From Flavobacteriales bacterium (GTDB lineage: Bacteria > Bacteroidota > Bacteroidia > Flavobacteriales_D > Crocinitomicaceae), in assembly GCA_013373595.1 (NCBI GenBank), contig JABXHO010000052.1, forward strand, positions 1 through 64,000: DNA of 64,000 bases, written 5' to 3'. The notes under the pieces were generated by a model. It worked only from the letters and a program-made list of their open reading frames with translations. It searched no databases and was not told the DNA's origin. Both the position numbers and the translations under genes were made by a program. Positions 38,328 through 55,172 of the stretch are shown piece by piece (position 1 is the stretch's first letter; the number at the start of each line of letters is the position of its first letter).

Positions 38328-39917
38328 ATGTTAAAAACCACCTTTGGGTTAATCGCTATTACCCTACTCTCATTTACCTCTCAGGCACAAATAACCGTTT
38401 CCGAATGGAGCGAATTAGAAAAAAGTCCTGGACGACTACTTAATCTACTACCTAGAGATGCCAATGACTTCTTCGCTTTAAGAAGAACTGGAAGAGGAAT
38501 CTTTGGAGGCATCGCCGTGTCTTCACACAAAAACCTTGAAACGCAACTAAAGGAAAAAATATCGCTCCGCGCGAACAATAGTCCTGCAAATTTCGAAGGT
38601 TCAACAATCGTTGGAGATCACTTTGTTGTCTTTATGTCAGACAAACAAGAAGGTCGAAACAATTTCTTCATGCAAGAGTATGGAGAAGACTTGGAACCGA
38701 TTGGAAATGCATTCGAATTAGCTTCTTACGAGCTTGAAAGTAAACGCGCACGTTTTGCAGGAACATTTTCGCTGTATCAATCAGAAAACAGAAATTTTTT
38801 CTCTGTAGTTTGGACAATCCCAGGACGAAAAGATGAAGAAACAAAATACGGATACAAAGTATTCGATGCTGATTTACAAGAAGTATCTGGAGGAACCTAC
38901 GAATTCCCATTTGAATCAAAATACTGTCGCATCAACACAATGCACCTTTCAAATACAGGTGATTTCTTCACTGTTGTAACAGAATATCAAGAATCTGAGG
39001 ATAAGAAACTATTCAAAAATTACGCGAACTATAAGACAATGCACATCTACCACATCAACTCTGATGGAATGGAGGATGTAGAAATTAATCTAGAAGGAAA
39101 ACGCGTAGAAGCATTAAATATCAACTCAGACAACAACCGACAATTCATCTTGACTGGAACCTACGGTGAGCGCAAAAAAGCAGGAATCAAAGGACTATTC
39201 TACATGAAGTTGGATTTCAAATCGCAGGAAATTTTAGCGGAAGGATTCGAAGAGTTTTCGGATGATTTCATCACGCAAGATTGGTCTGACCGCCAGAAAA
39301 AGAAAAATGCAAAAAAGAAGGCGCGAGGAAAAGATGCTGAACCTAAATTGTACGAATACGTTATGAGAGATATACACATCTTGGAAGACGGAAGCGTTGT
39401 AGGAAGCATGGAACAATTTTACATTCGCGTGGTTACTACCCGTGACCCAAGAACAGGAGCAACAACAACAACGTACTACTATTATTACAATGATGTAATT
39501 GCATTTAAAGTTGGAGCTGATGGAGGATTCGATTGGCATACAAAAATCGATAAATACCAAGTTTCTACCAACGATGGAGGATACTTCAGTTCGTATGAGC
39601 GCTTTGTTGATGACGGAAAAATGTACATGATTTTCAACGACAATAGCATGAACTACGATGAAAGTGGAAACTTCAGTGATCCTGAAAAACTACGTGCTGC
39701 TACCCTTTCGAAAAGAAAAAATACGGTAGCCTTGGTTGAAGTAGATTTGGAATCGGGGGAATTTTCTCGTAAAATGTTCTTTGATCGCTCTGAATTAGGT
39801 GCGATTGCTGTTCCTAAATTGTTCAACGTTGATTACAATAACGGTGAAGTACTGGTTTACGCAGTAAAGGGAACCAAAGAAAAATTTGGAATCATCGAAT
39901 TTGGTGAACAAGACTAA
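38328..39917 (+). CDS. Exported protein of unknown function, tandem paralogue 1
   Basis: A 529-residue protein with a signal peptide (MLKTTFGLIAITLLSFTSQA). It is homologous along its whole length to the next gene: both share LLP-D-N-F-ALR near residue 38, a NFEGS/A block, a FVVF(M/L)SDK(Q/R)EG block, EIPG/TIPGRKD, a Lys/Arg-rich patch (RQKKKNAKKKARGKDAEPKL here), a YYYYYNDVIAFK stretch and NYDESGNFSDPE. The strand-rich text and periodic FIL...GTY patterns suggest a beta-propeller. Function is not recognised. It forms a two-gene unit with its paralogue, 14 bp apart. Confidence 0.72.
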   Translation: MLKTTFGLIAITLLSFTSQAQITVSEWSELEKSPGRLLNLLPRDANDFFALRRTGRGIFGGIAVSSHKNLETQLKEKISLRANNSPANFEGSTIVGDHFVVFMSDKQEGRNNFFMQEYGEDLEPIGNAFELASYELESKRARFAGTFSLYQSENRNFFSVVWTIPGRKDEETKYGYKVFDADLQEVSGGTYEFPFESKYCRINTMHLSNTGDFFTVVTEYQESEDKKLFKNYANYKTMHIYHINSDGMEDVEINLEGKRVEALNINSDNNRQFILTGTYGERKKAGIKGLFYMKLDFKSQEILAEGFEEFSDDFITQDWSDRQKKKNAKKKARGKDAEPKLYEYVMRDIHILEDGSVVGSMEQFYIRVVTTRDPRTGATTTTYYYYYNDVIAFKVGADGGFDWHTKIDKYQVSTNDGGYFSSYERFVDDGKMYMIFNDNSMNYDESGNFSDPEKLRAATLSKRKNTVALVEVDLESGEFSRKMFFDRSELGAIAVPKLFNVDYNNGEVLVYAVKGTKEKFGIIEFGEQD

Positions 39918-39931
39918 ATACAAGTAACAGA

Positions 39932-41527
39932 ATGAGCACAACAAGAATTCTTTTGACATTTACACTTGGATTCTTGTGTGCTTTTTTTTCTTTTTCTCAG
40001 GAAAATAAACACGCCACGCCCGACATTGAATGGGGCGAATTAATGCGTAAAAATGGGCAACTACGCTACCTTCTTCCTGATGATCAAAACAGTTTCTATG
40101 CGCTCCGATGGTCGGGAAGTCGACTTTTTGGATATTACAACGTAACGAAGCACGAAAACCTGAAAATGGTTGGTGAGACCAAGGTGAAATTGGTCGCCAA
40201 TCGGAGCATCGCTAATTTTGAAGGTGCCAGCGTAGTGAATGGGAAATTCGTCGTGTTTTTATCCGATAAACGCGAAGGAAAGAATCACTTCTACATGCAA
40301 GAATTCGATGAAGACTTGCAGAAAAAGGAAGATATCACACTACTTGCTACCTATGAACTGGATCGAAAGCAAAAAGCAGGATCATTCGAGTTCAAAAAAT
40401 CTCCCAACGGAAAGTATTTTGGTGTAATCTGGGAAATCCCTGGAAAAAAGGACGTCCGCGACAGCTACGGATTTAAAATTTTCGACCTCAACATGCAAGT
40501 GATAAATGAGGGAGAGTACAAATTGCCTTTTGATCCCGATCTATCTTCTATTCATGAACACCTCATCTCCAATTCGGGCGATTATTTCATCTGTCTATCG
40601 GAATTTAAAAAATCAGAACGACGAACGCTTTTTTCTTCCAAAACGGAGTACAAAGCCTTGCACATCTATCGAATCAATGATGACCTTGGACTTCAGGACT
40701 TCACACTCGATGTAGACGGTCGACCTGTTGTTGCATTGGCGATGTCTGCTAACGAGCAAAATGTGTTCACACTGACAGGAATTTACAGCAATAACGATCA
40801 GTCGGGAGTAGCAGGCGTATTTTATCAAAAGTTAGACCTCAATGAAGAGAAAGTCATTCAGGAAGGCTTCCAAGAATTTGATGAATCCTTTATCACACAG
40901 GGATGGTCCGAGCGCTCACTGCGTCGGGCAGAACGAAGACGCAATCAAGGAAAAGGAGATCCAGAACTCTTCAGTTATACGATGCGAGACGTTACGTTCC
41001 TGGACGATGGCAGTATCATTGGAACGATGGAACAATATTATGTTCAGGTGCGATCAAATGGTGATGGAAGAATCGACCAATCCTCGAACATGTATTACTA
41101 TTACTACAACGACATCATCGCCTACAAAATCGATTCGACAGGAACGTTCTCGTGGGTGAAAAAGATTGAAAAAGATCAGGTTTCGGTGAATGATGGCGGG
41201 CCCTACAGTAGTTTTGAAAGCTTCGTAAACAACGGAAGAGTCTATTTCATCTTTAACGACAATCAAGAAAACTACGACGAATCGGGAAATTTCTCAGATC
41301 CAGAACGTTTGTATTCTGCCAATTATAGCAAACGAAAAAATGCCGTCGCCTTGGCCAGTATTGATATTGAAACAGGCGATTTAGATCGAACGCTTTTCTT
41401 GGAACGCAAAAAAAGTAACACGCTCGTCATTCCGAAACTATTTTCGGTGAATTATCAATCTGGAGAACTGATTATTTATTCCGTTGCCGGTCGAAAGGAA
41501 AAAATCGGAATCGTCAAATTGAAGTGA
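39932..41527 (+). CDS. Exported protein of unknown function, tandem paralogue 2
   Basis: A 531-residue protein with signal peptide MSTTRILLTFTLGFLCAFFS, cleaved near FSQ. It aligns end to end with the preceding gene, including ANFEGASVV, FVVFLSDKREGKNHFYMQEF, IWEIPGKKD, MYYYYYNDIIAYK and NYDESGNFSDPERLYSANYS. The region equivalent to the Lys-rich patch is Arg-rich (RSLRRAERRRNQGKGDPEL). The pair therefore arose by tandem duplication and has diverged considerably. No sorting domain or catalytic motif is visible. Confidence 0.72.
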   Translation: MSTTRILLTFTLGFLCAFFSFSQENKHATPDIEWGELMRKNGQLRYLLPDDQNSFYALRWSGSRLFGYYNVTKHENLKMVGETKVKLVANRSIANFEGASVVNGKFVVFLSDKREGKNHFYMQEFDEDLQKKEDITLLATYELDRKQKAGSFEFKKSPNGKYFGVIWEIPGKKDVRDSYGFKIFDLNMQVINEGEYKLPFDPDLSSIHEHLISNSGDYFICLSEFKKSERRTLFSSKTEYKALHIYRINDDLGLQDFTLDVDGRPVVALAMSANEQNVFTLTGIYSNNDQSGVAGVFYQKLDLNEEKVIQEGFQEFDESFITQGWSERSLRRAERRRNQGKGDPELFSYTMRDVTFLDDGSIIGTMEQYYVQVRSNGDGRIDQSSNMYYYYYNDIIAYKIDSTGTFSWVKKIEKDQVSVNDGGPYSSFESFVNNGRVYFIFNDNQENYDESGNFSDPERLYSANYSKRKNAVALASIDIETGDLDRTLFLERKKSNTLVIPKLFSVNYQSGELIIYSVAGRKEKIGIVKLK

Positions 41528-41549: not shown

Positions 41550-42812
41550 TTAGCCATTCAGCCGATCAAAATCTTCCCAGAAATCAGGATAACTTTTCGA
41601 TACGGCCTCTGCGCCAGCAATAACTGATTCACCCTCAATTTTCGAAGCAGCAATCGCCAAGCACATCGCAATACGATGATCATTGTGCGAATCCACACGT
41701 GCAGCGTGCAAGGTTGTTCCTCCATGAATCATCATGACATCATTCGCTTCATCCAGTTCGATCTTCAATCCAAACTTTGCAAACTCTTGTTGAAGTACTG
41801 TTCCTCTATCGCTCTCTTTGATTTTTAATCGGTGAAGCCCAGAAATAGTCGACCTTCCTTCGCAGAATGCCGCCAACACCACAAGCGCTGGGAACAAATC
41901 AGGACAATGCGTAGCATCCGCATGAAAAGCTAATCTATTCTCCCCTTTCACCTCAACCGTTGTATCTGAAATGGCCACCTCACAATTGGCAGCTTCCAAT
42001 ATTTTCAAAAGCGCTGTATCCGCTTGCGCACTCTGAAAGTACAAACCAGATACGCAAATTGGATGTCCCAAAGCCGCTGCAACCAACCAATAACTCACTG
42101 AACTCCAATCTCCCTCAACTATATACGAATCACACGTATAGGACTGATTTCCCTTAATGAAAAAGCGCTCAAAATTTTCATTTTCGATATGCACACCAAA
42201 ACTTTTGAGTGTATCCAAAGTCATTTGCACGTAAGGGATGCTTTTCAGATTGTGTACGACCAAGGTAGAATCTTCTTCAATCAAAGGCAATGACATAAGC
42301 ATTCCCGATAAAAACTGAGAGGAAGCACTTCCATCGATTTCAACAATCCCTCCGTGCATTCGTCCATCCACCGTTATGGGTAAATAGCCGTCATTACTTG
42401 AAACACGAACGCCCATTTGCGTCAAGTGTTGCTCAAAAAACAACTGTGGTCGCTTTAACAATGATCCTTCACCCGTAATGAAAAAATGTCCTTCATGTCC
42501 TGCACAAACACCAGTAATCAAGCGCATGCCCAAACCACTTTCTCCCGCATTCAATTCTGCTTCAACTGGAAAAGATTGAATTCCGCGGATGAGGTACGAA
42601 CCATCTTCTTGGAGCTGAACATCTGCCCCGAGTTCCTCAATATTTTGGAGCATTGCACGTTCATCATCGCTTTTTCCAACGCCAATAACTCGCGTTGTTC
42701 CCGTACTCAATCCTGCCGCTAAAATAACCCGTTGGCCATCACTTTTTGAAGCAGGAGCGCTAACTTCACCTTTCAATATGCAAGAAGAAATCGTCTTATT
42801 CATTCGAACCAT
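41550..42812 (-). CDS. aroA: 3-phosphoshikimate 1-carboxyvinyltransferase (EPSP synthase)
   Basis: A 420-residue shikimate-pathway enzyme that joins phosphoenolpyruvate to shikimate-3-phosphate. It has the substrate Lys and Arg in SAPASKSDGQRVILAAG (about 18-34), the NAGESGLGMRLITG block (about 88-101) equivalent to NAGTAMR, the DGSASSQFLSGML segment, KIKESDRG, and DSHNDHRIAMCLAIAA near the C terminus. The start overlaps the DAHP synthase-chorismate mutase gene by 17 bp (ATG 42812) or 8 bp (ATG 42803), so the two are an operon. This operon would supply chorismate to the divergent trp operon. Confidence 0.94.
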   Translation of the reverse strand: MVRMNKTISSCILKGEVSAPASKSDGQRVILAAGLSTGTTRVIGVGKSDDERAMLQNIEELGADVQLQEDGSYLIRGIQSFPVEAELNAGESGLGMRLITGVCAGHEGHFFITGEGSLLKRPQLFFEQHLTQMGVRVSSNDGYLPITVDGRMHGGIVEIDGSASSQFLSGMLMSLPLIEEDSTLVVHNLKSIPYVQMTLDTLKSFGVHIENENFERFFIKGNQSYTCDSYIVEGDWSSVSYWLVAAALGHPICVSGLYFQSAQADTALLKILEAANCEVAISDTTVEVKGENRLAFHADATHCPDLFPALVVLAAFCEGRSTISGLHRLKIKESDRGTVLQQEFAKFGLKIELDEANDVMMIHGGTTLHAARVDSHNDHRIAMCLAIAASKIEGESVIAGAEAVSKSYPDFWEDFDRLNG

Positions 42813-43878
42813 TTTCTGTGTTCATAACCTTTGTTTGATGTCTAATTGATTCCTGATGAATGGCATCCATCAGTTGACGAACAAATTGTTGCGTTAATCG
42901 GTATTCTCCACGTTTTTCAATACGCGAAGCGATTACTCGTTGCCAATGTTCTTGTTGTAAAATCGTAATATTATTTTCTCGTTTTAACTGTCCTACTTCT
43001 TCACTGAGCTCCATTCTTGCGCCCAATATATCAAAAAGTCGGTCATCCAAAATGGAAATTTTCGTTCGTAATTCCTTCAAAACAACCTGCAAATCTTCCG
43101 AGATTTCAACCGATCTCATAACAAGTTGACTTAGAATATCGAACAATCCATCTCCCGTGACTTGTTGTGCTGCATCCGACCATGCTTCGTCTGGGTTTGG
43201 ATGTGTTTCAATCATCAACCCTTCGAAGTCCAAGTCCATCGCTTTTTGACTCACTTCAAGCAGTAAATCACGACGTCCAGTAATGTGACTTGGATCGCAA
43301 ATAATGGGTAAATCAGGACGCTCTTCCTTCAAGCCAATCGGTATTTGCCAGTTGGGAACGTTTCTGTATTTGGGATGTTTGTAAACTGAAAATCCACGAT
43401 GAATCGCTGCCAAATCCGTAATTCCTGCTTTTTCGAAACGCTCGAATGCTCCGAGCCACAAATTCAAATCTGGATTCACTGGATTTTTTATCATGACAGG
43501 AATATCGATCCCTTTCAACGCATCAGCGATTTCTTGCACAGCAAAAGGATTCACGGTAGTTCTCGCTCCGACCCACAACACATCAATTCCCGCTTTTAGC
43601 GCAGCCTCAACGTGTTTCTTATTTGCCACTTCAGTGGTTGTTGGCAGATTTGTTTCCTTCCCCGCATTCACAAGCCATGGCAATGCAATTTCTCCCAATC
43701 CTTCGAAACTATTTGGGCGCGTTCTCGGCTTCCAAATTCCTGCTCGAAGCAATTGAACCGAATCATTTTTTGCAATTTGCTTGCAAATGGACATTACCTG
43801 TTCCTCACTTTCGGCACTGCATGGACCTGCCACAACAAATGGCCGTTCTCCCCGTCTTATCTTCTCTGCTAACTTCAT
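42796..43878 (-). CDS. Bifunctional DAHP synthase / chorismate mutase (AroQ type)
   Basis: A 360-residue fusion. Residues ~1-265 form a type I-beta DAHP synthase, the entry step of the aromatic pathway: FVVAGPCSAESEEQ, LLRAGIWKPRTRPNSFEGLG, VGARTTVNPFAVQEI, MIKNPVNPDLNLW and PIICDPSHITGRRDLL. Residues ~280-350 are a helical AroQ chorismate mutase (LRTKISILDDRLFDILGARM). I use the ATG at 43878; the longer ORF start at 43911 sits on the last base of an intrinsic terminator's T-run and is unlikely. In this fusion type the mutase domain can relay feedback by prephenate. A Trp-rich leader lies upstream. Confidence 0.93.
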   Translation of the reverse strand: MKLAEKIRRGERPFVVAGPCSAESEEQVMSICKQIAKNDSVQLLRAGIWKPRTRPNSFEGLGEIALPWLVNAGKETNLPTTTEVANKKHVEAALKAGIDVLWVGARTTVNPFAVQEIADALKGIDIPVMIKNPVNPDLNLWLGAFERFEKAGITDLAAIHRGFSVYKHPKYRNVPNWQIPIGLKEERPDLPIICDPSHITGRRDLLLEVSQKAMDLDFEGLMIETHPNPDEAWSDAAQQVTGDGLFDILSQLVMRSVEISEDLQVVLKELRTKISILDDRLFDILGARMELSEEVGQLKRENNITILQQEHWQRVIASRIEKRGEYRLTQQFVRQLMDAIHQESIRHQTKVMNTENGSNE

Positions 43879-43911
43879 CTTTCTTATTCGCTTAAAGGTA
43901 ATTTTTTTCAT

Positions 43912-43943
43912 AAAAAAATCCTGACGATTGGCGCCAGGATTTT
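43912..43943 (-). terminator. Attenuator terminator in the DAHP synthase leader
   Basis: Read leftward, AAAATCCTGGCG (43943-43932), loop CCAAT and CGTCAGGATTTT (43926-43915) form a 12-bp stem with one G-T wobble, followed by seven Ts (43918-43912). It lies 34 bp before the start codon of its own downstream gene, not after a gene, so it must act on transcripts entering the DAHP synthase operon. Confidence 0.85.
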
Positions 43944-43977
43944 CAAATTGTATACTATCAAATAGTTGTCCGAACGC
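43931..43977 (-). promoter_or_regulatory. Candidate antiterminator of the DAHP synthase leader
   Basis: GCGTTCGGA (43977-43969), directly after the leader-peptide stop, can pair with TCCTGGCGC (43939-43931), which covers the 5' arm of the terminator: eight of nine positions pair, two as G-T wobbles. A ribosome finishing at the stop would cover this segment and allow termination; one stalled at the Trp codons would leave it free. AACTAT (43967-43962) can also pair with ATAGTT in codons 13-15. This is a model from base pairing only. Confidence 0.45.
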
Positions 43978-44028
43978 TTAGTCTAAACTATCGTTCCATT
44001 GCCAGCTATTTACCTTGTTTTTATTCAT
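43978..44028 (-). CDS. Trp-containing leader peptide of the DAHP synthase-aroA operon
   Basis: An ATG at 44028 opens 16 codons, MNKNKVNSWQWNDSLD, ending in TAA. Two of the 16 residues are Trp (positions 9 and 11), separated by one codon, which is far above expectation. The stop lies 35 bp before an intrinsic terminator that precedes the DAHP synthase-chorismate mutase gene. This is the standard layout of ribosome-mediated attenuation: a stalled ribosome at scarce Trp-tRNA would allow read-through. No protein-level function is expected. It is divergent from trpL, with 75 bp between the two ATGs. Confidence 0.65.
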   Translation of the reverse strand: MNKNKVNSWQWNDSLD

Positions 44029-44066
44029 TTCGAATACAAAGGGAGAAAAAAAATTGAAATAATCCA

Positions 44067-44098: not shown

Positions 44099-44103
44099 CA
44101 GTG

Positions 44104-44187
44104 ATGTACAAAACAACTCAACATACAAACGTAATTACTACCGCATGGTGGTGGCACTCAACGAATCGTTGGTGTGAGTGGCGCTAG
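44104..44187 (+). CDS. trpL: trp operon leader peptide
   Basis: A 27-codon peptide from the ATG at 44104 to the TAG at 44185. Five codons are Trp: 15-17 in a row (44146-44154), 23 (44170-44172) and 26 (44179-44181). The C-terminal part reads TAWWWHSTNRWCEWR. This density, the position 80 bp before trpE and the downstream hairpins identify it as the sensor of an attenuator for tryptophanyl-tRNA charging. Ribosome stalling at WWW would occur when Trp is scarce and favour read-through into trpEGDCFBA. Confidence 0.88.
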   Translation: MYKTTQHTNVITTAWWWHSTNRWCEWR

Positions 44188-44223
44188 TTTGTAGTTTTCC
44201 ATAATATTCATAAGCGGTTCGTT
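44155..44223 (+). promoter_or_regulatory. trp attenuator: alternative pre-emptor and antiterminator pairings
   Basis: Segment AACGAATCGTT (44160-44170) pairs with 44213-44223 over 11 consecutive positions (two G-T wobbles), which would destroy the terminator. The same segment can be locked in a local hairpin: CACTCA/TGAGTG (44155-44160 with 44175-44180) and ACG/CGT (44161-44163 with 44167-44169). A ribosome stalled on the Trp15-17 codons would occupy the 5' side of that local hairpin and free the segment for antitermination. Confidence 0.72.
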
Positions 44224-44245
44224 TTTCTACGAGCCGCTTTTTTTT
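44212..44245 (+). terminator. trp attenuator terminator
   Basis: Arms AAGCGGTTCGT (44212-44222) and ACGAGCCGCTT (44229-44239) form an 11-bp stem with one G-T wobble and a 6-base loop, followed by eight Ts (44238-44245). It ends 24 bp before the trpE ATG, so it is an attenuator and not the end of a gene. Confidence 0.92.
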
Positions 44246-44268: not shown

Positions 44269-45666
44269 ATGTTTATTCAATCCCATTTGAGTCTGTTCTC
44301 AGCAGACATTTACACACCCGTCGAATTATATCTATCACTTCGACATCACTTTAGGAAAGCGTGTTTGTTGGAGAACAACGATTACCATTCGCGCCAAAAC
44401 AGTAAATCTTTCATCGGCTGCGAACCGATCGTTGAAATCACTCTGGAGAGAAACATTCTCACCATCAAGCAGCAAGAAGGCGTTGAGGAAATCCAATTGG
44501 AACCACAGCCATCCATTGCCAAACAGGTACAAACCGTTCTCGACCGATTTCAGTTTGAGCAACAACAATTCAACGGCTTTTTTGGGCGCATGAATTTCGA
44601 GTTCAATCTACAGGATGAAACCCACATCCAAAAAACAGCGCACGAAGGTGATTTACCCGATCTTCACCTCTTCATTTTCCGCTATCTGATTGTGATTGAT
44701 CACTTCACTTCCGACGGTTATCTGCTCGAAAATTCGTTTTCACCGATAGAAGAACCTACTGAAATCTATCATCTTTTTCAAAAGAGTAGCGTCATTCAAC
44801 TGCCCTTTGAAACTGTTGGTAAGGAAGTCGCGCATTTTAGCGATTCGGAATTTTCGGAGCTTGTAAAAAAAGGAAAGGCACACTGTGAGCGTGGCGACGT
44901 ATTTCAATTGGTTTTGTCGAATGAATTCCGTCAAGGTTTCTTTGGAGATGATTTTCAAGTATACCGTGAACTGCGCCGATTGAACCCTTCTCCTTACCTG
45001 TTTTACTTCGATTTTGAATCCTATCGACTTTTTGGATCATCGCCAGAAGCTCAACTCTTGGTAAACGATGGAAAAGCAGAGATTCATCCCATTGCTGGAA
45101 CGGTTCCCTTGACGGGAGATGAAACAACAGATGGCAAAGCGCTCGAATTTCTTTTACACGATGAAAAAGAGAATGCCGAACATACAATGCTTGTCGACTT
45201 AGCGCGGAATGATTTAAGTCGGGATTGTGCGCAAGTGACTGTCGAGAAGTACAAGGAAGTACAACATTTTAGCCATGTTACGCATCTTGTGTCCAAAGTC
45301 ACAGGGCAACTCAAAGAAAAAAATGCTTTCGAAGCTTTGTGTCACTCCTTTCCTGCGGGAACACTTTCTGGAACGCCAAAACCAAAGGCACTGGAACTCA
45401 TTCAGCGCTATGAAGGAGACAATCGGAACTTTTACGGTGGCGCCATCGGAATACTCGGGGCATCGGGCAATTTGAATACAGCCATTGTGATCCGTAGTAT
45501 TTTGAGTCAAAACAATGAATTGCAGTATCGAGCGGGAGCTGGCATCGTTCTGGATTCGGATCCCGACCGTGAAACACAAGAAGTACATCATAAGTTGAGG
45601 GCACTACGATCTGCCATTGCACGTGCAGAAAAAGTCGGTCTTCCCACTCAAAACATAGAACGATGA
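44269..45666 (+). CDS. trpE: Anthranilate synthase component I
   Basis: A 465-residue chorismate-binding enzyme that makes anthranilate with ammonia supplied by TrpG. Chorismate-site motifs are seen in the C-terminal half: HPIAGTVPLTGDE, EHTMLVDLARNDLSRDC, HSFPAGTLSGTPKPKALELI, GGAIGILGASGNLNTAIVIR and the final YRAGAGIVLDSDPDRETQEV. The N-terminal ~150 residues form the regulatory/Trp-binding region and diverge more. First gene of the trp operon; it overlaps trpG by 4 bases. Confidence 0.96.
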   Translation: MFIQSHLSLFSADIYTPVELYLSLRHHFRKACLLENNDYHSRQNSKSFIGCEPIVEITLERNILTIKQQEGVEEIQLEPQPSIAKQVQTVLDRFQFEQQQFNGFFGRMNFEFNLQDETHIQKTAHEGDLPDLHLFIFRYLIVIDHFTSDGYLLENSFSPIEEPTEIYHLFQKSSVIQLPFETVGKEVAHFSDSEFSELVKKGKAHCERGDVFQLVLSNEFRQGFFGDDFQVYRELRRLNPSPYLFYFDFESYRLFGSSPEAQLLVNDGKAEIHPIAGTVPLTGDETTDGKALEFLLHDEKENAEHTMLVDLARNDLSRDCAQVTVEKYKEVQHFSHVTHLVSKVTGQLKEKNAFEALCHSFPAGTLSGTPKPKALELIQRYEGDNRNFYGGAIGILGASGNLNTAIVIRSILSQNNELQYRAGAGIVLDSDPDRETQEVHHKLRALRSAIARAEKVGLPTQNIER

Positions 45667-49788: not shown

Positions 49789-50541
49789 ATGAATACTTTC
49801 AAAAAATCACACAAACAACTCAGCATTTTCGTTACTGCAGGATACCCAAATTTGGAAAGCTTGCCTGAACAGCTCTCCCTACTCGAAGCCAAAGGTGTCG
49901 ATTTCGTAGAAGTTGGCATCCCCTTTTCAGATCCAATGGCAGACGGTCCAACCATTCAGAAAACGAGTGATATTGCCTTAAAAAATGGAATGAATCTCGA
50001 TCGCCTGTTTGATCAGCTTCGTGAATATAATTCTAATCTTCCTGTCGTGTTAATGGGATATTTGAACCCCGTGCTTGCGTACGGAATCGATCGTTTTCTT
50101 TCCTTGTGCAAAGAAGTTGGCGTTTCTTCCGTCATCCTTCCAGATATGAGTCTTGAAATTTACGAACGCTTCTATCAAACTACGTTTCACGAATACGAAA
50201 TAACACCATGCTTTCTGATTACTCCGAGTACTTCCACGGAACGAATTGCCACCATTGCCAAAACCTGTCGCAATAGTTTTGTCTATCTCGTTTCATCAAA
50301 CGCGACAACGGGAGAGAACATTTCATTCGGCCAAGATCAAAAGAAACGCTTTGAACGCATTCGATCTGCCTGTGGTGAAACTCCTTTGTTTATGGGGTTC
50401 GGAATCGACTCAAAAGAAAAAGTTGACTTTGTTCACGAAGTATGTGATGGCGCCATCATTGGTTCGGCCTATTTGAAAGCACTGGAACATGGAAATGAGA
50501 TCACTTTTCTCGAATCATTGCAAACGCACGAACAAGCTTAG
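49789..50541 (+). CDS. trpA: Tryptophan synthase alpha chain
   Basis: A 250-residue TIM-barrel subunit that releases indole from indole-3-glycerol phosphate. Catalytic residues are E41 and D52 in FVEVGIPFSDPMADGPTIQK (equivalent to E49 and D60 of E. coli TrpA). VLMGYLNPVLAYGIDRFL, VILPDMSLE and LFMGFGIDSKEKV are also diagnostic. Last gene of trpEGDCFBA. Its TAG overlaps the stop codon of the converging repeat-protein gene, with no terminator between them. Confidence 0.96.
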   Translation: MNTFKKSHKQLSIFVTAGYPNLESLPEQLSLLEAKGVDFVEVGIPFSDPMADGPTIQKTSDIALKNGMNLDRLFDQLREYNSNLPVVLMGYLNPVLAYGIDRFLSLCKEVGVSSVILPDMSLEIYERFYQTTFHEYEITPCFLITPSTSTERIATIAKTCRNSFVYLVSSNATTGENISFGQDQKKRFERIRSACGETPLFMGFGIDSKEKVDFVHEVCDGAIIGSAYLKALEHGNEITFLESLQTHEQA

Positions 50542-53500
50542 TCAATCACCAAACGCAGCATCGCATTTTCATTGCCCGCAGTAACTTCGAGGAAATATAC
50601 GCCAGAAGGATAATCAACGAACATTTTGATCACTTCCTTGTTTTGATACTCATTCAACTGAAGCAGCCTTCCACGCGCATCTCTCATTGTGATTGTCACC
50701 TCACTTTTCACACTTCCTAAATCGATGGTGAATTCACCTTGCGAAGGATTTGGGAAGAGCGAAATCGTCTCAAGGAAATGTTGGTCGATATCCGCATTGT
50801 TTACCGTAACACAAATTGATGTGTCTGAACAGTTATTCAAAGAAATCACAACGGCATAATCACCATTGACGGTTGCAATAAATTCTTGTCCCGTTTCTCC
50901 CACAATCGGCGCTCCTGTTGTACAATTGATCCATTCGTAGGTTCCTCCGTTCGCGTTGCTCGATGTAAGAACATTATCCGTTTGGAATACATTTGCATTG
51001 ATGGTAGTAACTGTAAGATCGAGTGTGACCATTGAATCACATCCTGCTTGACTTTGTAACGTCGTTGAATAGACACCCGAGTTCGTGTAGGTTTGTCCTG
51101 TTGCCGACCACACATAGCTTCCACATGCTGAAATCGTTTCAGAAGAAGTTGTCGCGCCCGAAATACTAAGGTTTAATGTGATGGTAGAATCACAACCCAA
51201 CGAATTTGTCAAGGTCGCAGAATACGTTCCACTGTTTGTATAGGTTTGCCCATCGACAGGCCAGAAATACGATTCACATGCCGCAATGCTTGTAGAAGAT
51301 GATGATGGTGCTCCGATTGTTAAGTTTAAGGTATATACCGAGTCACAACCATTTGCCGCAACAAAGTTAGCCGTGTACGTCCCAGAATTCGTGTAGGTAT
51401 TTCCGTTCACTCCCCACGTGTAGCTGCCACAAGCAGCAACAGATGTTGAACTTGAGAAACCATTGTTGAGCGTCAAATTGAGCGTCAATGTACTATCACA
51501 TCCCGCTGCGTTCGGAATGACTGTTGTGTAAGTTCCTGAATTCGAATACGTCAGTCCACTTTCTGGCCAGAAATAACTTCCACATGCCGTTATATTCGCT
51601 GTAGATGACGAAGGCGAATTGATTGTGAGGTTTAACGTTACTGTTGAGTCACATCCGATAGAGCTCAAAACAGTCGTGCTATACGAACCACTTGATGTAT
51701 ACGTATTCCCATTCAATGCCCATGTGTACGCTCCACATGCATTCACATTTTGAGTAGTTGACGTATTGGATGCAATTGTTAAATCGAGGTTCGCAGTAGA
51801 ATCACATCCATTCGTCGTGAATCCAGTTACTGAATAAATGCCTGACGTCGTATACGTTTGACCATTTACTGGCCACGTATAACTTCCACAAGCCGTAATG
51901 ACATCGGTTGTACTGTAGCCATAATCGAGTGTCAAGTTCAATGTAAGCACACTGTCGCAGCCCAATGTATTCGTTAAGGTTGAGGTATATGTTCCACTTG
52001 CCGTATAGGTCATTCCCGTTTCTGACCAGAAATAACTATCGCACGCGGTGATGTTTTCTGTACTTGCCGAACCATTCAAAATTGTTAGGTTAAGCGTAAC
52101 AACAGAATCACATCCTGCCGCATTTGGAATGGTCGCAAAATAGGTTCCACTCGTTGCGTAAGAGTTTCCATTTAATGGCCATGTGTACAAATCGCACTCA
52201 GTCACAGAAACCGAAGCCGTTGAACTGGTTGTAATCGTTAAATCGAGATTCAAAATAGAATCACACCCTTGTGCTGTTAAGAAAGAAGTAGTGTAGAGAC
52301 CGCTTGTTGTGTACGTTACTCCGTTTGCTGGCCAGAAATACGAATCACATGAAGAGATTACTTCTGTATTGTTGTAATCGTACCCAACTGATAGATCAAG
52401 CGTCACGACACTATCACAGCCTACCGCATTCGTGAACACCTCGGTATACACTCCCGAAGTAGTGTACGTCATTCCGTTTGTTGGCCACGTATAGCTGTTA
52501 CACGCTGCAACGGTTTGCGTTGAGCCAGAACTACTCTTGAGCGTCAAGTTGAGTGTGATCACAGAATCACATCCGCTTACATTTGGAATCGTAGCGAAGT
52601 ACGTTCCTCCCGATGTATAGGTATTTCCATCCACTGGCCAGAAATACGAATCACACGCTGTCGCATTTTGTGTTGCGCTCGAACTACTATTCACGACCAA
52701 ATTTAGATTGACAATGGAATCACATCCTTGTGGTGTTGTCAGTGTTGCCGTGTACACTCCACTTGTGGTATACGTATTCCCGTTCGCACTCCAATAATAA
52801 CTATCACAGGCTGCAACGTTGATGGTTGAGTTCGTGTTTTGTCCAAGATCAAGGTTCAATTGAACAATACTATCGCAACCTGCAGCATTCGTATATACTT
52901 CGGAGTAAATGCCACTACTTGAGTACGTCGTACCATTCTCTGCCCAGAAATAACTTCCACAGGCACTCACGTTTTGAGTGGAGAGATCACTTGAATTGAT
53001 CGTAAGGTTCAACGTTATAATAGAATCACAACCTGCTGCATTTGGAATCGTGTCTTTATACGTTCCTGAAGCTAGATATGTCACTCCATCCTGAGCCCAT
53101 GTGTAGGAATCACATGCTATGATGTTTTGTACCGATGTCGAATTGTTGAGAATCGTCAAGTTGAGCAGATGCGTCGAATCACATCCTGCTGCATTCGTTG
53201 CCGAAATGGCATAGGTTCCGCTTGAGGTATAAGTTACACCATTCGTTGGCCACACATACGATTCACATGTGGTAATGGTTGTGGTATTCAAATAACTATC
53301 ATTGATCGTCAAGTTCAGAGTAATGATGCTATCGCAACCAATTGAATTAGGGATGGTTGTTGTGTAGCTTCCGCCTGTCGTGTATGTCGTATTGGTTGCC
53401 GACCAGAAATAAGCATCGCAAGCCGTAATATCTACGCTACTTGTTGTTGCCGTACTAATCGTCACATTCACAGTGATGATACTATCACATCCTACTGCGT

Positions 53501-55172
53501 TTGGAATCGTATCGAGGTAAGTTCCCGATGATGTCCAAACATAATTTCCACTTGGTGAAACCAGAGAATCACATGCTCCTGCGGAAATCGTTGCAAAGGA
53601 GTTCGGCAATACGGTCAAGTTGATCGTAAGAATCGAGTCACACCCATTTACGTTCAAAATCGTATCTGAATACGTTCCTGAACTCGCATAAACAGCACCA
53701 GAAGGAGCCGTGTACGTTTCACATGCCGTTTCGTTGATCGTGCTGAACGTTGCAGGATTCACTGTCAAGTTAATCGTAATAATCGAATCAAATCCATTCG
53801 CATTGACCAATGTATCTGTATATGTTCCTCCCACAGTGTATGTTTCATCTCCACTTGGAACAGTATAGGCATCTCCTTGACAAATAAGCGGATCAATGGT
53901 TGTGTAGGTGTTGCTGTCCAGAACATTCACCACATACTGGAAAGGCGTGCTCCACGTATTATCTTCTCCCTTCACACGAAGATTGAATAAATGAACTCCT
54001 ATTGACGTTGGTGTTAACGTATTTGCAAACAAGTCTTCCACTGCCTCGTTCAAGTTTCCATCCAGTGCGAAGATTGGCGAACCATTCCCTGCTCCAGGGT
54101 CCGTATCCCAGAAATATTCAGCTTGAACAACTTGTATATCTCTTGAGATAAGTGTTGGAGTGAAGACATTCACCGTATGCGAAAAAGTGCTACTCCACGT
54201 ATTATCCAAGCCTTTCACACGCAGATTAAAGGTATGTATTCCACTTGAAGGGCTCGCAACCGAACCGTCGAACAATTGTTCCAACGCCTCATCGAGATTT
54301 CCATCCAACGCAAGAATAACGGTTCCATTTCCAACTCCTGGATCTGTATCCCAAAAGTACTCTGCTTGAACCACGTGTGCATCTCGCGTGATTAATGTTG
54401 GTGTGTTTACGTTAATCACATATGAAAAAACGGGACTCCAACCATTGTCGAAACCTTTTACTCTCAGGTTGAAGGTGTGAATTCCCATCGTTGGGACCGA
54501 AACAGCACTATTGAATAAGCTTTCTATCGCTTCATCGAGGTTTCCGTCAAGAGCTAAAATTGTTGTTGCATTTCCTTGTCCCGGATCGGTATCCCAGAAA
54601 TATTCAGCTTGTACAACTTTCACATCACGCGATACAACTGTTGCATTGAAGATATTGACCGTATGCGAAAAAACATTACTCCATGTATTGTCAAATCCCT
54701 TTACGCGAATATTAAACTTGTGCAACCCGGCTGCAGGAAGCGATGACGCGTTATCAAACAATGCTTCAATGGCTTCATCTAGGTTTCCGTCCAATGCTAA
54801 AATCGGCGTTGCCAAACCTACCCCTGGATCAGTATCCCAAAAATATTCCGCTTGAACCACCTGAACATCTCTGGATGTGATGGCTTGATTGTAAATGTTT
54901 ACGGTATAACTAAATGTGTTACTCCATGTATTCTCTAATCCTTTCACGCGCACATTGAAGGTGTGCAAACCACTTGAAGGAAGTGCTGATGAATTATTGA
55001 ACAGTTTTTCTATTGCCTCATCCAAGGCACCATCTTCAGCGAGAAGCGCAGTTCCATTTCCTTGCCCTGGATCGGTATCCCAGAAATACTCGGCCACGGT
55101 GACCTGTTGCCCGACAACTACGTGCCCAACAAGCACCATCACAAACGCGAATATATATTTGAATTGCTTCAA
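50538..55172 (-). CDS. Giant T9SS-secreted repeat protein (putative surface adhesin)
   Basis: A 1544-residue protein. The signal peptide is residues 1-21 (MKQFKYIFAFVMVLVGHVVV). Residues ~22-426 are five repeats of 81 residues, each starting (V)xVVQAEYFWDTDPGxGN and containing LDGNLDEAIExLF and FNxRVKGxDNTWS. Residues ~427-1394 are nineteen repeats of about 51 residues of the form ACxSYxWxxNGxTYTxSGTY...GCDSxxTLNLT, nearly all with two Cys that could pair within a repeat. A YEWINC...NGDYAVVIS Ig-like unit follows, then a type A T9SS sorting domain (SLFPNPSQGEFTIDL to the C terminus). Such proteins are exported to the surface; adhesion is inference. Confidence 0.9.
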   Translation of the reverse strand: MKQFKYIFAFVMVLVGHVVVGQQVTVAEYFWDTDPGQGNGTALLAEDGALDEAIEKLFNNSSALPSSGLHTFNVRVKGLENTWSNTFSYTVNIYNQAITSRDVQVVQAEYFWDTDPGVGLATPILALDGNLDEAIEALFDNASSLPAAGLHKFNIRVKGFDNTWSNVFSHTVNIFNATVVSRDVKVVQAEYFWDTDPGQGNATTILALDGNLDEAIESLFNSAVSVPTMGIHTFNLRVKGFDNGWSPVFSYVINVNTPTLITRDAHVVQAEYFWDTDPGVGNGTVILALDGNLDEALEQLFDGSVASPSSGIHTFNLRVKGLDNTWSSTFSHTVNVFTPTLISRDIQVVQAEYFWDTDPGAGNGSPIFALDGNLNEAVEDLFANTLTPTSIGVHLFNLRVKGEDNTWSTPFQYVVNVLDSNTYTTIDPLICQGDAYTVPSGDETYTVGGTYTDTLVNANGFDSIITINLTVNPATFSTINETACETYTAPSGAVYASSGTYSDTILNVNGCDSILTINLTVLPNSFATISAGACDSLVSPSGNYVWTSSGTYLDTIPNAVGCDSIITVNVTISTATTSSVDITACDAYFWSATNTTYTTGGSYTTTIPNSIGCDSIITLNLTINDSYLNTTTITTCESYVWPTNGVTYTSSGTYAISATNAAGCDSTHLLNLTILNNSTSVQNIIACDSYTWAQDGVTYLASGTYKDTIPNAAGCDSIITLNLTINSSDLSTQNVSACGSYFWAENGTTYSSSGIYSEVYTNAAGCDSIVQLNLDLGQNTNSTINVAACDSYYWSANGNTYTTSGVYTATLTTPQGCDSIVNLNLVVNSSSSATQNATACDSYFWPVDGNTYTSGGTYFATIPNVSGCDSVITLNLTLKSSSGSTQTVAACNSYTWPTNGMTYTTSGVYTEVFTNAVGCDSVVTLDLSVGYDYNNTEVISSCDSYFWPANGVTYTTSGLYTTSFLTAQGCDSILNLDLTITTSSTASVSVTECDLYTWPLNGNSYATSGTYFATIPNAAGCDSVVTLNLTILNGSASTENITACDSYFWSETGMTYTASGTYTSTLTNTLGCDSVLTLNLTLDYGYSTTDVITACGSYTWPVNGQTYTTSGIYSVTGFTTNGCDSTANLDLTIASNTSTTQNVNACGAYTWALNGNTYTSSGSYSTTVLSSIGCDSTVTLNLTINSPSSSTANITACGSYFWPESGLTYSNSGTYTTVIPNAAGCDSTLTLNLTLNNGFSSSTSVAACGSYTWGVNGNTYTNSGTYTANFVAANGCDSVYTLNLTIGAPSSSSTSIAACESYFWPVDGQTYTNSGTYSATLTNSLGCDSTITLNLSISGATTSSETISACGSYVWSATGQTYTNSGVYSTTLQSQAGCDSMVTLDLTVTTINANVFQTDNVLTSSNANGGTYEWINCTTGAPIVGETGQEFIATVNGDYAVVISLNNCSDTSICVTVNNADIDQHFLETISLFPNPSQGEFTIDLGSVKSEVTITMRDARGRLLQLNEYQNKEVIKMFVDYPSGVYFLEVTAGNENAMLRLVID
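50991..53894 (-). repeat. Nineteen in-frame ~153-bp coding repeats
   Basis: The part of the giant gene coding for the 51-residue Cys-pair repeats. Units differ at many positions, so they are old or diversifying rather than recently amplified, except that GCDSxxTLNLT and the SYxW core stay nearly constant. The first unit lacks its second Cys (FDS in place of CDS). Confidence 0.9.
53895..55109 (-). repeat. Five in-frame 243-bp coding repeats
   Basis: The part of the giant gene that codes for the five 81-residue AEYFWDTDPG repeats. Units are more alike than the 51-residue repeats. The stretch EYFWDTDPG is invariant in all five. Confidence 0.9.

Follow-up and report, generated by a model that had tools for sequence, protein, structure and literature searches.

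In the genome of a Flavobacteriales bacterium of the family Crocinitomicaceae, a short open reading frame (ORF) with two Trp codons and an intrinsic terminator precede the gene of a DAHP synthase-chorismate mutase fusion. Comparison with related genomes indicates that this region is very probably a Trp-responsive, ribosome-mediated transcription attenuator placed in front of the fusion gene and aroA. The stretch of DNA analysed (the window) is 64,000 nucleotides long. An earlier note, made from the window alone, had described the leader and proposed this control. It was right on the anatomy and most likely on the mechanism, which is supported by leader conservation, terminator covariation and a test in which pairing partners are swapped between leaders.

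Organization of the leader region

The features discussed are the following:

41550..42812, minus strand: aroA (EPSP synthase); TIGR01356 above cut-off, PF00275; overlaps the end of the synthase gene
42796..43878, minus strand: DAHP synthase-chorismate mutase fusion, the putative controlled gene; PF00793 and PF01817 above Pfam cut-offs
43916..43942, minus strand: intrinsic terminator hairpin (3:4), then a T run to 43912; from folding and covariation
43931..43939, minus strand: segment 3, partner of segment 2 inside the terminator 5′ arm; from sequence reading and duplex prediction
43969..43977, minus strand: segment 2, predicted antiterminator 5′ arm, right after the stop codon; from its duplex with the terminator 5′ arm and the swap test
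43978..44028, minus strand: leader ORF MNKNKVNSWQWNDSLD with its stop codon; from sequence reading, ATG at 44028
44037..44044, minus strand: candidate promoter -7 box TCCCTTTG; predicted, consensus TAnnTTTG (Bacteroidota)
44104..44187, plus strand: divergent trp leader ORF MYKTTQHTNVITTAWWWHSTNRWCEWR, the first leader of the earlier note; from ORF reading and a sub-cut-off RF01692 match
44212..44239, plus strand: terminator hairpin of the divergent trp leader; from a terminator scan
44269..45666, plus strand: trpE, with which the divergent trp operon begins; PF00425 and PF04715 exceed their cut-offs

The leader ORF extends over 16 codons on the minus strand, from the ATG at 44028 to the stop codon at 43978, and re-reading of the window sequence finds it where it had been placed before. 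It has two Trp codons only, codons 9 and 11 of MNKNKVNSWQWNDSLD. The segment behind the stop codon, GCGTTCGGA (43977-43969), lies opposite TCCTGGCGC (43939-43931) in the terminator 5′ arm, and eight of the nine positions pair, as the earlier note had claimed, two of them as G-U; duplex prediction also finds this pairing (-10.3 kcal/mol). The terminator ahead of the synthase gene, for which 12 bp had been claimed, has 11 bp (-13.5 kcal/mol, z -4.3, equalled by 0 of 200 dinucleotide shuffles) and 13 bp when the whole leader is folded. It is missing from the output of a simple terminator scan, and a fold-based search was therefore used. Its T run lies 34 bp before the synthase start codon, which by homology is the ATG at 43878, in agreement with the spacing first described; an in-frame ATG at 43911, right after the T run, has no counterpart there in the relatives read. 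Taken alone, the antiterminator of the window is moderate (z -1.4 against shuffled post-stop segments). The window's own pairing of the two segments comes 5th and 11th out of 19 when partners are swapped, and the antiterminator stretch folded in isolation favours part of the terminator.

Conservation in Crocinitomicaceae and beyond

Conservation was assessed with a strict test that demands an ATG-initiated ORF of 8-35 codons with two Trp codons within four codons and a terminator 0-70 nt after its stop codon, a T run after the hairpin being part of the search criterion. The synthase search gave matches in 198 of 200 genomes. From the matches listed, 110 Crocinitomicaceae loci (30 + 80) were chosen by eye, excluding second copies, incomplete matches and several rows lower in the list. 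The ORF with its terminator is present at 33 of the 110 loci versus 2 of 2200 dinucleotide-shuffled upstream regions; the Trp-Trp ORF alone occurs in 40 of the 2200. The 33 leaders span nine genera (g1, g7, g9, g10, g11, g13, g18, g22 and g23), have 19-41 nt between ORF and terminator, and encode peptides of 14-20 residues (n=33). In this range the window is counted from the conserved ATG; the script had taken an upstream in-frame ATG there, giving 29 residues. A WW or WxW core, demanded by the test, is found in all 33 peptides and little else is common between genera. A relaxed scan in which one Trp suffices, run without shuffles, gave 37 of 110 loci; the additional L044, L070 and L073 look genuine and L093 does not. 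By the strict test 77 of the 110 loci lack the element, and by the relaxed test 73. Searched with a covariance model of the synthase element, 34 same-genus genomes gave 11 matches with 57 bits or more, all before the synthase gene (ten directly, G052 by coordinates); seven of these were in the model alignment and four were not. Weaker matches reach at most 46.8 bits; in the window's genome the runner-up scores 34.7 bits.

Among named organisms, a strict leader is found in a Fluviicola record and is missing from Brumimicrobium glaciale and Crocinitomix algicola; taxonomy records assign Fluviicola and Brumimicrobium to Crocinitomicaceae, Flavobacteriales. The 80 named loci, 79 of them long enough, gave four matches. 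Three of them, L214, L215 and L218, are taken to be identical with L016, L015 and L060; the fourth is L285 of Aequorivita aurantiaca (Flavobacteriaceae), whose Trp-Trp leader with terminator was the entry point to a second family. In that family, for which no shuffles were run, a Trp-Trp ORF with terminator is found at 7 of 75 loci (e.g., MNINNIFNTSNFWWHLLRSVS); complementary post-stop segments were seen there by eye only, L294 is the same site as L285, and L325, one of 76 loci, could not be oriented. At 66 of the 68 other loci there is no terminator within 120 nt of the gene. No credible case was found at 59 loci from other families of the order, which form an outgroup set of 80 together with 19 loci of genus g22 and 2 second family copies. 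Two formal matches in this set, L163 and L176, each located in a stretch that contains tRNA genes, were rejected. Phage records searched with the intergenic region gave no match.

The earlier note had suggested aligning the leaders of orthologous genes, and this alignment revealed the Trp-codon ORF, the terminator and compensatory changes. The comparison makes the predicted element a much stronger observation than the single sequence did. Conservation holds in part of the family and is not general.

Pairing within the leader

Thirteen of the 33 leaders were aligned and 19 served as representatives in swap tests, both sets being picked by eye. In the alignment, 96.8% of the terminator cells are paired, versus 59% at most when the arms are slid. 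Compensatory changes are found at 7 of 12 pairs, and 28 cells are changed on both sides versus 9.6 expected, a number reached by 0 of 500 shuffles. The antiterminator is weaker on this alignment: 79.3% of its cells are paired (51.1% at most when slid), its double changes at 4 of 9 pairs are reached by 113 of 500 shuffles, and its covariation score is reached by 19 of 500.

Segments 2 and 3 match across lineages when examined free of the alignment, by pairing the region behind the Trp codons with the leader's own terminator arm or with that of another leader. Own partners gave a mean of -10.3 kcal/mol in the 19 representatives versus -7.9 +/- 0.5 for permuted ones, and 0 of 20000 permutations were as good, although ancestry is shared among these leaders. 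For all 33 leaders the means are -9.9 for own partners versus -6.9 for partners from other genera. The distance from the last Trp codon to the start of segment 2 is 6-25 nt (median 15); relative to the end of the stop codon, this start lies anywhere from 12 nt upstream to 8 nt downstream. Judged by the known size of the ribosome footprint, this placement fits a ribosome that would free the segment when halted at the Trp codons and cover it when at the stop codon. A protecting 1:2 helix appears in many leader folds and is not supported (mean z -0.3 in 33 leaders; 2223 of 20000 permutations in its swap test).

Candidate promoter and leader start

Of the 19 representatives, 15 have a TTTG whose last base lies 4-9 nt ahead of the leader ATG, versus 122 of 1818 other ATGs of the same regions, and the same placement is seen in 22 of all 33 leaders. 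The full TAnnTTTG is present in 9 of the 19, the window not being among them. In Flavobacterium psychrophilum the -7 box is located at -12 to -5 (PMC9723704), and transcription is therefore predicted to start 0-5 nt before the leader ATG. This applies to 15 of 19 lineages, the distance being 12-14 nt in L016, L025, L032 and L051; in the window the predicted start is 44032, 4 nt ahead of the ATG. The leader peptide may therefore be translated from an almost leaderless message, if the predicted box is the promoter. The divergent Trp-rich ORFs likewise have TTTG 4-9 nt before their start in 22 of 34 cases. The F. psychrophilum study reports 5.5% leaderless mRNAs and describes Flavobacteria as being without Shine-Dalgarno sequences (PMC9723704).

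Genes behind the leader and the divergent trp leader

In the fusion enzyme, the chorismate mutase domain (PF01817) lies C-terminal to the DAHP synthase domain (PF00793), and aroA probably shares one transcript with the fusion gene. In the first 30 loci with long flanks, the synthase gene has aroA downstream in the same orientation at 15 of 17 leader loci and at 13 of 13 others. TIGR00564 (trpE_most) is the top NCBIfam match of 44269..45666, under its cut-off. In a scripted count on the first 30 loci with long flanks, trpE is head-to-head at 16 of 17 loci with a leader (the 17th, L013, begins 530 nt upstream) versus 0 of 13 without. In 22 more loci that were viewed, 18 of them within the 110, the arrangement is seen at 2 of 5 strict-leader loci versus 3 of 13 others, two of the latter (G096 and G080) having one-Trp leaders. 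At G012, G086 and G043 a leader is present and neither trpE nor aroA was seen in the flanks. From these counts (16 of 17 and 2 of 5), the leader is mostly tied to trpE. At the leader-free loci L006, L019-L022 and L029 the synthase gene is often close behind an ORF ending ...FEDVAYFEPFYLKDF..., presumably tsaB from its resemblance, and the gene therefore seems to have moved away from trpE.

Elsewhere in the window, 38328-39917 and 39932-41527 (plus strand) encode adjacent similar proteins of 529 and 531 residues that look like a tandem duplication. A protein of 1544 residues (50538-55172, minus strand) carries many repeats of the type YTW...GxTYTxSGxYxxxxxNxxGCDS, and its C-terminal end resembles a type IX secretion tail.

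The divergent trpE leader resembles the Rfam family Bacteroid-trp (RF01692), which matches the window at 44099-44223 (plus strand) with 26.6 bits, below the cut-off of 49. On the trp side of relatives the cut-off is exceeded in L032 (55.5 bits) and L378 (51.8 bits); 60 family genomes gave one match over it and none in the window's genome. A divergent Trp-rich ORF, counted without shuffles, is found at 27 of 33 leader loci versus 7 of 77 others, and at least three of these seven (L040, L047 and L048) are without the usual motif. That motif, C-terminal in the trp leader peptide of many relatives, is of the form WW(W)(H/R)(S/T)Txx(R/S)WCxW and appears longer than codon counting alone would need.

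The synthase leader itself has no Rfam assignment: RF01692 has no minus-strand match in the window up to E 10, and in 16 related sources scanned it matches the trp side only. At gathering score Rfam has 0 matches in the window. The matches of other families to the leader all stay under their cut-offs; examples are FsrA (21.0 bits, E 0.046, cut-off 80) and, in L016, Thr_leader (25.9 bits, cut-off 55).

Proposed mechanism and alternative explanations

From the position of the promoter box, transcription would start a few bases before the leader ATG and produce a leader of ~120 nt, from which the ribosome would translate the 16-codon peptide. With scarce Trp-tRNA it would stall at Trp 9 or 11 and leave segment 2 free to pair with the terminator 5′ arm; no terminator would then form, and the synthase-chorismate mutase gene and aroA would be transcribed. 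With ample Trp-tRNA the ribosome would arrive at the stop codon and cover segment 2, the terminator would form and transcription would end just before the genes.

The combination of an unrelated terminator with a spurious ORF is a very improbable origin for such a leader. The ORF alone does arise in shuffled sequence (40 of 2200), and two of the 80 outgroup loci match formally in regions with tRNA genes; against this stand the frequency of ORF and terminator together (33 of 110 versus 2 of 2200) and the swap test (0 of 20000). We give as little credence to a TnaC-like sensor, in which the nascent peptide would detect free tryptophan instead of charged tRNA being counted: several genera retain the ORF and its Trp residues, but apart from the Trp core there is little agreement between their peptides, a pattern that fits codon reading and would not be expected of an arrest peptide. 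Slightly less remote, though still improbable, is control at the level of translation, with the stalled ribosome or the hairpin governing the synthase translation start. The hairpin does end only 15-45 nt from the start codon at most leader loci; however, this distance varies from 15 to 145 nt, a T run follows the hairpin in every match (as the search criterion has it), and Flavobacteria are without Shine-Dalgarno sequences (PMC9723704).

A different matter is what the attenuator reads. Phe or Tyr codons stand beside the Trp codons in many related leaders (e.g., MMNTNTFYWFWFDFKGSTF and MKNYNTRFFWFWNSLS), and some species may therefore respond to more than Trp, the leader of the window being an exception. 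That in part of the family the same device responds to more than one aromatic amino acid, Phe and Tyr codons causing stalls too while the window leader reads Trp only, is possible if rather unlikely. In 19 leaders, 21 of the 87 residues adjoining the Trp cluster are Phe or Tyr, versus 13 of the 160 residues elsewhere (Fisher p 0.0008, for a zone picked after the data were seen). AroR of Corynebacterium glutamicum reads Phe-Tyr-Phe, but Tyr is without effect there (PMC11802643). Some divergent trp leaders likewise have F or Y before WW, and Trp, by the search criterion itself, is the sole residue common to all 33 cores. It is possible, at somewhat less than an even chance, that the region is bidirectional, with two head-to-head near-leaderless attenuators, the trp side reading Trp and the common-pathway side reading Trp or, in many species, Trp together with Phe/Tyr.

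Relation to known attenuators

Trp control of DAHP synthase is known by other means, namely E. coli aroH with TrpR, and T-boxes. To our knowledge, the AroR-controlled DAHP synthase of C. glutamicum is not fused to chorismate mutase. AroR is the closest counterpart in kind, a leader peptide with attenuator that precedes a DAHP synthase gene, aroF (PMC11802643, PMC4046766). It differs in its Phe-Tyr-Phe codons, its response to limitation for Phe and not Tyr (PMC11802643) and the phylum, and the likeness of the two is one of description. The earlier note had known of no description of Trp attenuation of a synthase-mutase fusion. Attenuation of a DAHP synthase gene as such is known from AroR; in the literature searched, leader-peptide control of DAHP synthase is found in Corynebacterium only, with Phe/Tyr codons, and neither the Trp version, nor the fusion enzyme as target, nor the phylum Bacteroidota was found. 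No article found in these searches was recognised as describing a Trp leader before a Bacteroidota DAHP synthase. Strong clues for leader-peptide attenuation before amino-acid operons are mentioned for F. psychrophilum (PMC9723704), and Table S7 of that article may list a counterpart.

Bacteroid-trp is likewise a Bacteroidota leader with Trp codons, and relatives carry it in the same intergenic region as the synthase leader, on the other strand; unlike the synthase leader, it controls the trp operon. It is listed in PMC2864571. The E. coli trpL and pheL attenuators share with the synthase leader a short ORF with end-product codons and alternative antiterminator and terminator (PMC11802643). 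In contrast to them, the target here is a common-pathway gene, the 1:2 helix is unsupported and the start is predicted to be near-leaderless in most lineages. In Sinorhizobium meliloti, the leader RNA of the Trp attenuator trpL has the ATG of its ORF at the very 5′ end (PMC7298713); its target is trpE(G), and the leaderless start is established there whereas here it is predicted. Comparison gives good support to the synthase leader, which would be a familiar kind of switch on an unusual target.

DAHP synthase stands at the entrance to three amino acids and other aromatic compounds. A Trp attenuator on its fusion gene and aroA, beside a trp attenuator, would show that the common pathway and the Trp branch are coupled in part of the family. 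The predicted near-leaderless peptides provide a testable case of translation start without Shine-Dalgarno sequences. If the reading with two attenuators were true, entry into the aromatic pathway and the Trp branch would be matched via the translation of two small peptides.
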